This document shows positions 1-7,458 of a DNA stretch of 23,405 bases, piece after piece. Under the pieces are notes generated by a model, which did not search any database, was not told where the DNA came from, and worked only from the letters and a program-made list of their open reading frames with translations. Source of the stretch: a virus; the IMG/VR virus record IMGVR_UViG_3300009104_000126, positions 1 to 23,405 of that record; one strand, given 5' to 3'. Numbering within the stretch: position 1 is the stretch's first letter; the number at the start of each line of letters is the position of its first letter. A program made the position numbers and the translations under genes.

Positions 1-564
1 GAAGTGGATGATTTAGTTGAAGTCAATGGTGTACAATACGCCAAAGTCAAAGAACAAGATGAGTTCGAAGCCCGTAATGGTGACTTAGAAGTCAACGAGG
101 AAGATGACATTGACCTTGAAGAAATCTTGAAAGCACTCTCAGAACAAGATGATGAAGAAGCAGAGAAATCTGAAGCGAAAGTAACTGAACTTACATCAGA
201 TCTTGATGAGCACCGCAAGGTAGTGAAGTATCTACGTTCTAAGTTGAATGAAGTTAATTTATTGAACGCAAAACTATTGTTCACTAACAAATTATTCCGT
301 GCACACGGTTTAACTAATGAACAGAAGTTGAAAGTCGTAGAAACTTTCGATAGAGCTAAGAACCTTAGAGAAGTTAAGTTGGTATTTTCCACCTTGGCAG
401 AATCTTTTGGTAGCAAACCGGCAAGTACGCCAAAACAAATTAAAGAGAGTAAAGGCTCGGCTTCAAAACCTGTTGCTTCTACCAAACCTAAATCAGCACC
501 GAAGGTGATTGAAGAAGGATTTGATATGAAGGAACGTTTTCAGAAGTTAGCTAATATTCTATAA
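1..564 (+). CDS. 22: Prohead core scaffolding protein, gp22-like (3' part)
   Basis: The reading frame is open from the first base, so the gene enters from upstream and its true start is not visible; the GTG at base 4 has no ribosome site and is unlikely to be the start. The visible 187 residues are very acidic at first (an Asp/Glu-rich stretch around residues 25-60), then form a long charged helix with a conserved-looking core around NAKLLFTNKLFRAHGLT, and end in a Ser/Lys/Pro-rich linker and a short helix, ERFQKLANIL. This pattern, directly before the major capsid gene, fits the T4 gp22 family, the internal core on which the prohead assembles and which the prohead protease later degrades. 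Several possible protease sites of the (L/I)-x-E type are present (LSE, LAE, IEE). The identification rests on pattern and position. The protease gene must lie outside the window. Confidence 0.82.
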   Translation, partial: EVDDLVEVNGVQYAKVKEQDEFEARNGDLEVNEEDDIDLEEILKALSEQDDEEAEKSEAKVTELTSDLDEHRKVVKYLRSKLNEVNLLNAKLLFTNKLFRAHGLTNEQKLKVVETFDRAKNLREVKLVFSTLAESFGSKPASTPKQIKESKGSASKPVASTKPKSAPKVIEEGFDMKERFQKLANIL

Positions 565-2326: not shown

Positions 2327-3487
2327 ATGGAAGCTATATGGATAGGAAGTTCAAGTTTTTCAACAGGACAAACACCATTAGGACTTTATGATAGTGATAC
2401 CGATTTTTCTGGATCTGGGGCAAATTCGGTTGATAGATTTGCAGATTGGGCGGCAAGAAGATTGGGGTATCCAATCATGGCTGTTGAATTACCATCTGGT
2501 TCACTTTATGCCTGTTTTGAAGAATCAATTACTGAATATTCGGCACAAGTTAATCAATTTAACATTAGAGAGAATTTGTTATCATTACGAGGACAGACTA
2601 CTGGTTCAAATGTTACCCATAAACGAGTAACACCTAATTTTGCAGACGCCATTAGGGTTTCAGAACAATATGGTACAGAGGCAGGTGTTGGTGGAACAAT
2701 AGATTTTAAAAGTGGTTCAATTTCTGTTTCAAGTGGTTCACAAGTATATGATTTAAATTCATTGTGGGCCGCAGTTTCTGAAAGTGGTAACGCAATAGAG
2801 ATACGAAAAGTATATTACGAAGCATCACCAGCAGTTCAACGGTATTTTGACCCGTATGCAGGAACAGGAGCTGGTTCTTACAATATGTTAGATGGTTTTG
2901 GTTGGGGTTCTATGACACCAGCCGTTCAATTTATGATGATGCCAATATATGCAGATGTTTTGAGGATGCAGGCAATTGAATTTAATGACCAAATTAGAAA
3001 ATCTGCACATACATTTGAATTAAGAAATAATAAAATAAGGATTTTTCCAAAACCAACAACAAGTTATAAGCTGTGGTTTGAATATATTCTTAAATCAGAT
3101 CGAGATAATCCTATACAAACTGCATATGGAGAGGGAGAGGGAACGGTTTCAGATTTTTCCAATGTTCCTTATAATAATATGCAATATAAGTATATTAATG
3201 ATGTCGGAAAACAATGGATTAGGAAATATGGACTTGCATTAAGTAAGGAATTACTTGGAATGATTAGAAGTAAATATGGTTCTATTCCTGTTCCAAATGC
3301 AGAAACAACATTGGATGGTGATACTCTAAGGACGGAAGCACAGACAGAAAAGGAATTTCTCATTACACAATTAAGAGAAAATCTCGAAGCATCAAGTAGA
3401 AAAATGATGTTAGAAGCAGATAGTGAAGAATCTACACGACTTCAAGAAAAATTACAAAAAGTTCCATTACCAATTTATATAGGATAA
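2327..3487 (+). CDS. 13: Neck protein gp13 (head completion)
   Basis: This 386-residue protein (T4 gp13: 309) would form part of the neck ring that closes the filled head and receives the tail. Family features are visible: an N-terminal helix with WAARRLGYPIMAVELP (residues 41-56) followed by a short helix containing CFEESITEYS, which is the gp13-type 'RRLGxPxxxVEL...' segment, and a C-terminal region with YINDVGKQWIRKYGLALSKE, then a charged helix ending in KVPLPIYIG. A strong AAGGAG (2313-2318) lies 8 bases before the ATG. The gp14-like gene starts 4 bases after its stop. Codon use and base composition are more AT-rich than in the capsid gene next door. The placement after gene 23 differs from T4, where 13-14-15 precede 16-23. 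Confidence 0.88.
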   Translation: MEAIWIGSSSFSTGQTPLGLYDSDTDFSGSGANSVDRFADWAARRLGYPIMAVELPSGSLYACFEESITEYSAQVNQFNIRENLLSLRGQTTGSNVTHKRVTPNFADAIRVSEQYGTEAGVGGTIDFKSGSISVSSGSQVYDLNSLWAAVSESGNAIEIRKVYYEASPAVQRYFDPYAGTGAGSYNMLDGFGWGSMTPAVQFMMMPIYADVLRMQAIEFNDQIRKSAHTFELRNNKIRIFPKPTTSYKLWFEYILKSDRDNPIQTAYGEGEGTVSDFSNVPYNNMQYKYINDVGKQWIRKYGLALSKELLGMIRSKYGSIPVPNAETTLDGDTLRTEAQTEKEFLITQLRENLEASSRKMMLEADSEESTRLQEKLQKVPLPIYIG

Positions 3488-5674: not shown

Positions 5675-6514
5675 ATGGCAACTTTATTAAAAAAATCATT
5701 AACATTATCTGGAGGAACAGGAGTATCATTAAGTAATGATGGTATTGATTTTAATGCCAGTACACCTATTAACCAAAATATAACAGTTGGAAATGACATA
5801 AGAACAACTGGTAAAGTTGAATTTAATGCAGTTACATCGAGTGGATATAATTTAAGTGGATATACTTTACTTGCAGATAGATGGGCTTCTGATTTTACTG
5901 CAGGGGGTACTATAAGAGTTACTGGAGATTTAACAATACCTGGAAATGCATCAGTTGGTGTGAAAGTTACTGCAGAAAAAATTACTTCAGAATTAACTTC
6001 TTCTGGAACAATATTTGCAAGTGGTTCAACACAATTCGGTGATACAATTGATGACATTCATTATTTTACGGGCAGTGTTTATCAAAGTGGTTCATTTTCT
6101 TTATTGGGGTACAGTGTAGATGAAATTTCTAATGATACAACTCTTACAGATAATAGTAGTACCGCATTAATGACAGAAAGTGCTTCAAAAGCATATACGG
6201 ATGTTGAATTAGGTTCAAGTGGTGAACCTACTGCTACTGATTCATACATAAGAAAAAGTTATAATAAAACTGCCTCGTCTGTTTCTAATAATACGGCCAG
6301 TTTTACAGCAGTTACGGCATCGGCACCTGAAAGTGTAACAGCAACAAGCGAAGCAGATTATTTATTTTTTAATAATGGACAAGTAATGGAACATGACGCG
6401 TTACAAATACAACAAAGTGGTTCAACATTTATGTTAATAGTGAATCCAAATAGTATAGGATATAATCTATCAAGTGATGATGAAATAAAAGCATGGGGTA
6501 AATTCAATGCTTAA
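5675..6514 (+). CDS. Fibre-like structural protein, paralogue of the gp15 C-terminal module
   Basis: This 279-residue protein has no visible cysteine and is rich in Ser, Thr, Gly and Asn. It consists almost entirely of the module found at the C-terminus of the gp15-like protein just upstream (residues 8-279 against 296-562 there). It has three parts: an N-terminal strand-rich segment (GTGVSLSNDGIDFNAS), a shaft-like middle (GDLTIPGNASVGVKVTAEKI, SGSTQFGDTIDDIHYFTGS, STALMTESASKAYTD) and a C-terminal domain (YLFFNNGQVMEHDALQIQQ to AWGKFNA) that may be a tip or trimerisation domain. It begins 9 bases after the preceding stop with only a weak ribosome site (AGGAACAGACA), which suggests translational coupling. 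The stop overlaps the next start (ATGCTTAA). It is probably a virion fibre or whisker component; the exact location is unknown. Confidence 0.75.
   Translation: MATLLKKSLTLSGGTGVSLSNDGIDFNASTPINQNITVGNDIRTTGKVEFNAVTSSGYNLSGYTLLADRWASDFTAGGTIRVTGDLTIPGNASVGVKVTAEKITSELTSSGTIFASGSTQFGDTIDDIHYFTGSVYQSGSFSLLGYSVDEISNDTTLTDNSSTALMTESASKAYTDVELGSSGEPTATDSYIRKSYNKTASSVSNNTASFTAVTASAPESVTATSEADYLFFNNGQVMEHDALQIQQSGSTFMLIVNPNSIGYNLSSDDEIKAWGKFNA
5696..6511 (+). repeat. Fibre module, copy 2 of a tandem duplication
   Basis: The partner of the module at 4862-5662, here as a free-standing gene with its own start. Similarity is strongest at the protein level, in the SGSTQFGD...HYFTGS segment and the last 60 residues; the DNA is only partly alike. 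Confidence 0.85.
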
Positions 6515-6905
6515 ATTAAAAGATTTATTATTTGAGGGTCATAATGATACAAAAGATACTGGTGGAGTTTTATATTATTGGTATGATAAAGTCTTATTGT
6601 GTTTAGGAGAACGTTCAAACGAATGGAATGTTCCTAAAGGACATATACAAATTGGAGAAGAACCATTAGATGGTTCAGTTAGAGAATTTACAGAAGAAAC
6701 ACAAATAGTATTAAATGGGATTCCAGAATTAGTAAATACATATAAGAAGGATAAAGGTGGAGAGTTTTATTTATATGTGTTGAAGGGAACAACAAAATTT
6801 ATTCCAAGAATAAACCATGAACATATAGATTGGGGATACTTTGACGTGAATAACTTACCGAGTCCGATAAAGAATTGGGTTAAGGAAACTATTGAAGATG
6901 ATTAA
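6507..6905 (+). CDS. Nudix hydrolase with a possible capsid-targeting leader
   Basis: This 132-residue protein carries a nearly complete Nudix box at residues 45-67: Gly45, Glu51, Arg59-Glu60, Glu63-Glu64, with Gln66 in place of the usual Gly. Nudix enzymes cleave nucleoside diphosphates linked to another group, using metal bound by these glutamates. The WNVPKGH just before the box is like that of Ap4A hydrolases and RNA 5'-pyrophosphatases (RppH), so a dinucleoside polyphosphate or an RNA 5' end is a reasonable substrate guess; the true one is unknown. The fold seems to begin near residue 18. Before it lies MLKLKDLLFE-G, a 10-residue leader ending in a possible prohead-protease site, nearly the same as the leader of the next protein. 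The start overlaps the previous stop by 8 bases and the stop overlaps the next start (ATGATTAA), so the three genes are probably translationally coupled. Confidence 0.9.
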   Translation: MLKLKDLLFEGHNDTKDTGGVLYYWYDKVLLCLGERSNEWNVPKGHIQIGEEPLDGSVREFTEETQIVLNGIPELVNTYKKDKGGEFYLYVLKGTTKFIPRINHEHIDWGYFDVNNLPSPIKNWVKETIEDD

Positions 6906-7110
6906 GTTAAAAAAATTACTAACAGAGAAAATGAGTGATGATAAACGTGCCTTCTTAATGTTACGAATCTATGGGGATAGTTGGAAAATAAATTTAGGAA
7001 AAGTTTTTTCGGGAATTAATAAGGGTAAACCTACTTTGATTAAAAAAGGATTAAAAGAAATTAAAATTCTCAATAAAAAAATTGAAGAAATGATTGAGGA
7101 TTTGATTTAA
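6898..7110 (+). CDS. Small basic protein with a possible capsid-targeting leader
   Basis: I do not recognise a family. The 70-residue protein is rich in Lys and Ile, with no cysteine or membrane segment. I chose the ATG at 6898; an in-frame TTG two codons earlier would make the frame longer but is a poorer start. From 6898 the protein begins MIKLKKLLTE-K, the same pattern as MLKLKDLLFE-G in the upstream Nudix protein. The leader would be followed by a short strand/helix region (AFLMLRIYGDSWKINLGKVF) and a C-terminal basic amphipathic helix (IKKGLKEIKILNKKIEEMIEDLI). A small basic protein with a protease-type leader is like the internal head proteins of T4 (IPI-IPIII), which travel in the capsid and enter the host with the DNA. 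This is inference from the leader, size and charge. Confidence 0.65.
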   Translation: MIKLKKLLTEKMSDDKRAFLMLRIYGDSWKINLGKVFSGINKGKPTLIKKGLKEIKILNKKIEEMIEDLI

Positions 7111-7164: not shown

Positions 7165-7458
7165 ATGAGGAAACGACATTGGAAAAATAGAAAAAACAGA
7201 AAGTGTCCTGATTGTAATAGAGTTATCTATTATACTCGTAAAGATACTTTTGACCGTGCAGTAGGGAATAACGCTGTATGTAAATCTTGTGCACAGTCAG
7301 ATAGAAAACTTACTATGGAAACTATTGAAAAAATGAAGAAACCTAAGAGTAATAAACATAAGAAAAATATTTCACAAGGAATGACTTTGTATTGGCAGGA
7401 AAGAAAAGAACAAGAAGCATTAAAATATAAGGAATTTAAATGGCTTACATCGGATTAA
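7165..7458 (+). CDS. Zinc-ribbon / NUMOD3-like DNA-binding protein (homing endonuclease remnant?)
   Basis: The protein has 97 residues and is strongly basic. Cys14-x2-Cys17 and Cys39-x2-Cys42 form a zinc-ribbon pattern. Then comes a stretch, METIEKMKKPKSNKHKKNIS to about residue 78, that resembles NUMOD3 helix-turn DNA-binding motifs, found next to GIY-YIG and HNH nuclease domains in phage homing endonucleases. No GIY-YIG, HNH or other nuclease core is present, so it is either a free DNA-binding protein or the remains of a mobile endonuclease. There is no clear ribosome site before the ATG, and no earlier ATG, GTG or TTG in frame after the upstream stop at 7114. Its last 19 bases overlap the next gene, which uses AAGGA at 7429-7433. 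It sits between fibre genes, a usual place for selfish insertions. Confidence 0.65.
   Translation: MRKRHWKNRKNRKCPDCNRVIYYTRKDTFDRAVGNNAVCKSCAQSDRKLTMETIEKMKKPKSNKHKKNISQGMTLYWQERKEQEALKYKEFKWLTSD

Follow-up and report, generated by a model that had tools for sequence, protein, structure and literature searches.

A ten-residue leader on a Nudix hydrolase and many other proteins of marine T4-like phages as a probable capsid-targeting propeptide

In a 23,405-base fragment of a T4-like phage (IMG/VR record IMGVR_UViG_3300009104_000126; hereafter, the window), two consecutive genes encoding a Nudix hydrolase and a small basic protein start with nearly the same ten residues, which raises the question of what a common leader does on two different proteins. 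The Nudix open reading frame (ORF; positions 6507–6905, plus strand) has an ATG start and encodes 132 amino acids with the N-terminus MLKLKDLLFEGHNDTKD (MLKLKDLLFE-G), and the second ORF, running from the ATG at 6898 to 7110, encodes 70 amino acids beginning with MIKLKKLLTEKMSDDK (MIKLKKLLTE-K); its frame is also opened by a TTG at 6892, two codons upstream, and the leader fits the ATG at 6898. These sequences confirm the first-pass annotation of this DNA, which had noticed a shared 10-residue leader ending in L-x-E on both proteins. We consider it highly probable that the leader is a T4-type capsid-targeting propeptide that is cut by a gp21-type protease, and that its cargo is placed in the head and then ejected. 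The two predicted propeptides, each with a predicted cut after Glu10, occupy positions 6507–6536 and 6898–6927 of the plus strand; the first is assigned from its sequence, motif enrichment and a low-confidence region of the structure model, and the second from its sequence and the alternative pro-regions found in four relatives.

Recurrence of the leader and its likeness to T4 propeptides

Relatives were fetched by homology to the window Nudix protein and the major capsid protein gp23, and further loci were collected by the leader pattern itself. The consensus of the leader is M-(I/L/A/V)-K-L-K-x-(L/I)-(L/I)-x-E. A back-translated degenerate DNA pattern gave 35 sites in 10 of 17 related records, all on one strand within any one record, and a reversed-pattern control gave none. 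At the protein level, the strict leader motif occurred at 101 of 4,536 near-start ATG codons of these phage loci versus 1 of 10,914 internal ones. A chance origin of the leader is ruled out by these two controls. The loci obtained by Nudix or capsid homology, or from those records, contain 93 distinct tagged proteins with unrelated bodies; adding the leader-collected loci raises this to 267 distinct proteins in 110 body clusters, a count that varies with the thresholds used. Since the added loci were chosen by their leader, they inform on the diversity of the cargo and not on its frequency. Exactly 10 residues is the length of 90 leaders, in a set selected for the motif. Recurrence of the leader on other proteins of related phages, the check proposed beforehand, was strongly positive and extends to many different bodies. 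The leaders of one genome carry many synonymous-site differences, while Lys3, Leu4, Leu/Ile7, Leu/Ile8 and Glu10 are kept, indicating that the peptide is conserved and not the DNA.

The capsid-targeting sequence of T4 IPIII consists of its first 10 residues, among which residues 4 and 7 are important for targeting and residues 8 and 10 for processing; the gp21 cut follows (L/I)-x-E (PMC9026906). The marine leader has Leu4, Leu/Ile7, Leu/Ile8 and Glu10, so that the likeness to the T4 sequence pointed out earlier holds at all four key positions. The N-termini read from the T4 genome are MKTYQEFIAE for IPII and IPIII, MELITELFDE for Alt and MAKINELLRE for gp24. Like the marine leader, those of IPII, IPIII and Alt are N-terminal, have hydrophobic residues 4, 7 and 8 and Glu10, and are common to unrelated bodies; unlike it, they read MKTYQEFIAE or MELITELFDE and serve few T4 cargo proteins, as against 110 body clusters in the marine set. 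A relaxed pattern has a single match in the whole T4 genome, the vertex protein gp24; this pattern was the marine one loosened with the gp24 sequence already known, and the informative part is the lack of any other T4 match. The first 10 residues of gp24 are removed by the prohead protease gp21 (PMC9958956), and this propeptide shares with the marine leader the length, the pattern M-x-K-(I/L)-x-x-L-L-x-E and, in T4, the cut after Glu10. Thus, the T4-type assignment stands, but the nearest T4 leader is the gp24 propeptide rather than the IPIII leader named in the first-pass annotation. In T4 the gp24 propeptide is on a shell protein, whereas the marine leader is on many unrelated cargo-like proteins. 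In the phages phiKZ and SPN3US, head and ejected proteins are likewise cut by a gp21 relative after x-x-E, and two paralogues have identical leaders (PMC5694885); however, the rule there is A-x-E and the propeptides often exceed 100 residues.

Protease, cut rule and module junctions

A prohead protease of the S77 (gp21) type is encoded at positions 2476–3096 of locus L008 (PF03420, E 3.1e-26), and its relatives with a complete N-terminus have I/L-x-E there, comparable to LIE-9 of T4 gp21. The cut position of gp23 in these phages reads I-x-E: of 71 distinct relatives, all have Glu64 and 70 have Ile62; the corresponding LIDE64-S65 of the window gp23 was aligned with the T4 gp23 cut by eye. An S77 protease and gp23 occur together in each of the five contigs of 100 kb or more that were selected by the leader; the shorter leader-selected contigs mostly lack both genes, as fragments may.

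A cut after Glu10 would make residue 11 the first of the mature protein, and this boundary could then accept other pro-regions as well. Therefore, bodies standing directly behind the leader in one phage were taken, and the sequence preceding the homologous body elsewhere was inspected. Among 32 non-trivial cases, the joint coincided exactly with the tripeptide (L/I/V)xE in 21 (2.1% expected), and in 26 the tripeptide was at most two residues away (10.6% expected). Shared ancestry inflates the nominal p of 4e-28, and some three of the 21 exact junctions probably represent ordinary leaders that follow a wrongly called start. These junctions support the predicted cut after the Glu of the leader. 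Among the clearest is that of the second window protein, which reads LLTE-KMSDDKRAFLM in the window, whereas in four relatives the same body follows pro-regions ending in SLDE, TIDE, KIDE and SVDE. The sequence (L/I/V)xE-G also stands before a P-loop kinase family, in four metagenomic phages as well as in Pelagibacter phage HTVC008M, Methylophilales phage Melnitz and Agrobacterium phage Atu_ph07, the last three having otherwise different leaders and all encoding S77 proteases. The Nudix protein of locus L005 has an inserted pro-region ending in QLTE, one residue off the aligned joint.

Pro-region modules that recur between leader and body were also observed, namely segments with RKFGEPLPTL and with CECGxxCC, for which (I/L)-x-E is a frequent ending (L071 3969–4358, L005 6652–7125 and L024 6290–6646).

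Cargo, delivery and alternative explanations

Pfam matches among the tagged proteins include AAA_33/Zeta-type kinases, PolyA_pol/CCA-adding-type enzymes, a weakly matching NT5C nucleotidase, HAD-like proteins, acetyltransferase and Mom-like proteins, and lysozyme. The isolated Microcystis phage Mel-JY01, whose tagged genes lie at 60–63 kb, has tandem leader-bearing proteins (L132 10276–10923 and 12056–12715) that matched no Pfam family and appear ADP-ribosyltransferase-like from a sequence motif, an assignment to which the YHGT of a Vibrio phage homologue lends weight; this distant homologue starts with MKKFNEFAKELEE. The distance to gp23 is no more than 20 kb for half or more of the tagged genes in 8 of 9 related records, several of these genes standing between the portal gene and gp23, although such a fraction is expected to be high in short records, so that only the long records G001 and G004 give it real weight. 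An exception is G007, where four tagged genes stand in a row at 39.0–43.0 kb, upstream of the terminase and far from gp23; they encode a CCA-adding-type enzyme, a possible metallopeptidase, an NT5C-like protein and a protein with no assignment. For Atu_ph07, many virion proteins detected by mass spectrometry are reported to come from CDS 31–76 (PMC6102473), and gp053, a kinase homologue, would fall within this range by number, although the numbering of the paper may differ from the locus tag.

These data suggest the following scheme. The leader would bind the prohead core during head assembly and carry the attached protein inside, where the gp21-type protease of the phage would cut after Glu10; the mature protein would stay in the head with the DNA and be ejected into the host with the genome, as T4 Alt and IPI are. 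For the window, the cargo would be a Nudix pyrophosphohydrolase and a small basic helical protein. Sequence comparison gives good support to the tag, to its site rule and modularity and to the occurrence of the protease in relatives, and, on the same grounds, to packaging and cleavage, physical packaging being what we infer from these patterns. Ejection into the host is proposed by analogy with T4 Alt and IPI, and the Nudix enzyme may act in the host. More broadly, it seems rather likely that one short tag marks the virion-delivered repertoire of a large uncultured marine T4-like group, with swappable enzyme cargo (Nudix, kinase, nucleotidase, nucleotidyltransferase and ADP-ribosyltransferase-like), partly built as module chains cut at gp21 sites inside the head.

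Several observations weigh against packaging and delivery by the leader. The window has no gp21 gene, being a fragment that ends before the expected gp21 position, and choosing loci by their leader gave a biased sample. At six of the 32 junctions, the tripeptide is missing even if a displacement of two residues is allowed. The Nudix protein of Atu_ph07 lacks the leader in the one of four that was read, and for the tagged CCA-adding-type and lysozyme-like enzymes a use in the head or during entry is not obvious. Finally, the open-licence literature yielded no data on virion proteins of this phage group: the paper on Baltic Flavobacterium phages, searched for proteomics of the nearest isolates, does not mention the immuto phages (PMC7077304), and Mel-JY01 is not named in the literature searched.

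Alternatively, the tagged proteins could enter the prohead and be cut there, but work inside the head, in core assembly or DNA condensation, and never reach the host. A large tagged family encoded between the portal gene and gp23, the place of gp67 and gp68 in T4, would suit such a role, and most T4 core proteins are degraded in the head (PMC9026906). However, an in-head role is not evident for the Nudix, kinase, nucleotidase and ADP-ribosyltransferase-like cargo, and T4 Alt and IPI, which have such leaders, are ejected (PMC9958956); we regard this alternative as unlikely. A role of the leader as a short amphipathic helix that directs proteins elsewhere, for instance to the host membrane or to a different phage complex, with an incidental L-x-E, is very improbable: the leader is indeed modelled as a short helix, with low confidence, but the same tripeptide occurs at helix-less internal module junctions, at the gp23 cut position and at the protease N-terminus. 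A DNA-level cassette copied between genes as a translation start or recombination hot spot, encoding a functionless peptide, could explain why tagged genes are often tandem with start codons overlapping upstream stops, but its probability is negligible, since it is ruled out by the synonymous differences between the leaders of one genome, whose key residues are constant, and junctions distant from any start obey the same (L/I/V)xE rule.

If cargo is delivered as proposed, the tag may reveal which proteins uncultured marine T4-like phages carry in their virions. Factors for counter-defence and host takeover are to be sought first among injected proteins, which act before any phage gene is read, but such proteins are difficult to identify from their sequences; with a tag visible in the DNA, metagenomic contigs could be mined for head cargo. 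The loading of varied proteins by T4-like phages via a short propeptide is an idea already stated (PMC9026906), and papers found with the term "capsid targeting sequence" in the open-licence literature, judged by title, did not concern this phage group. As far as that literature shows, the consensus of this group, the breadth of its cargo and the interchangeable pro-regions are new, and they suggest that T4-type targeting is far wider than the few internal proteins of T4 show.

The Nudix gene pair and its surroundings

The Nudix body, with a predicted mature start at Gly11 (positions 6537–6905, plus strand), was identified by a match to PF00293 (E 3.5e-10), its Nudix box, sequence profile and fold. 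In the box GX5EX7REUXEEXGU, residues G45, E51, R59, E60, E63 and E64 are invariant in relatives, and Gln replaces the late Gly. When 11 tagged Nudix proteins, 31–88% identical to that of the window, were aligned, M1, K3, L4 and E10 proved to be conserved as strictly as the catalytic residues; five of these proteins (L157, L191, L228, L234 and L243) were fetched by the leader, so that its conservation rests on the other six. In the AlphaFold2 model, the predicted local distance difference test score (pLDDT) is below 50 at residues 5–12 and above 90 for most of the remainder, which places the leader outside the Nudix fold, as stated in the first-pass annotation. The sequence profile and the fold are nearest to diadenosine tetraphosphate (Ap4A) hydrolases and Dcp2-type decapping enzymes. 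The most likely substrates are dinucleoside polyphosphates or RNA 5' ends; this earlier guess fits the profile and fold but is not established by them. A virion-delivered Ap4A/cap-type Nudix enzyme would be a testable case of the proposed delivery. T4 NudE is also a Nudix hydrolase, weakly similar to that of the window (26% over 89 residues) and encoded close to ipII and ipIII, but it has no capsid-targeting leader. Positions 517–634 of phrog_15528, a PHROG labelled portal protein, match the window Nudix domain (E 5e-7), a hint of portal–Nudix fusions, that is, of virion-borne Nudix domains in other phages.

The body of the second protein (positions 6928–7110, plus strand) is a predicted two-helix hairpin, modelled with a mean pLDDT of 86.7 and helices at residues 14–42 and 45–69. 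The isoelectric point (pI) is 9.9 with the leader and 9.8 without it, in agreement with the initial description of this 70-residue protein as small and basic. No Pfam or PHROG family was matched, and comparison with T4 ipII, ipIII and alt, IPI being outside the comparison, gave nothing better than E 1; homology to T4 IPII, IPIII or Alt was rejected on this comparison. Distant homologues without a leader occur in L266 and L151, showing the tag to be an addition to this body.

Elsewhere, the window comprises the end of the scaffold gene, gp23, neck genes and, around the Nudix pair, repeat-rich structural genes. The gp22-like scaffold protein (positions 4–564, plus strand) is a C-terminal part cut by the window edge, with the C-terminal sequence of its counterpart at L008 8600–9961, which lies directly upstream of gp23; the window gp23 itself is at 599–2215 on the plus strand (PF07068, E 3.8e-76). 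Further ORFs are read as tail sheath and tube from their position and tblastn matches to related records. A 97-residue ORF at 7165–7458 has two CxxC pairs (CPDC and CKSC) and is zinc-ribbon-like, with no family match and no leader.

Upstream of the Nudix gene, a repeat-rich gene was delimited by its coordinates (5675–6514, plus strand). Its stop overlaps the Nudix start by 8 nt, and the Nudix stop overlaps the second start by the same length, which suggests joint production with the upstream late structural protein; no promoter-like TATTTATA was found between 5675 and 6507. This sequence is the reverse complement of the T4 late promoter TATAAATA, and the plus strand of the window has 8 copies of it versus 2 of TATAAATA. 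Six of the copies, at 2283, 14777, 19400, 19785, 22289 and 22365, lie in gaps upstream of gene starts, and TATTTATA is a candidate late promoter of this phage group.
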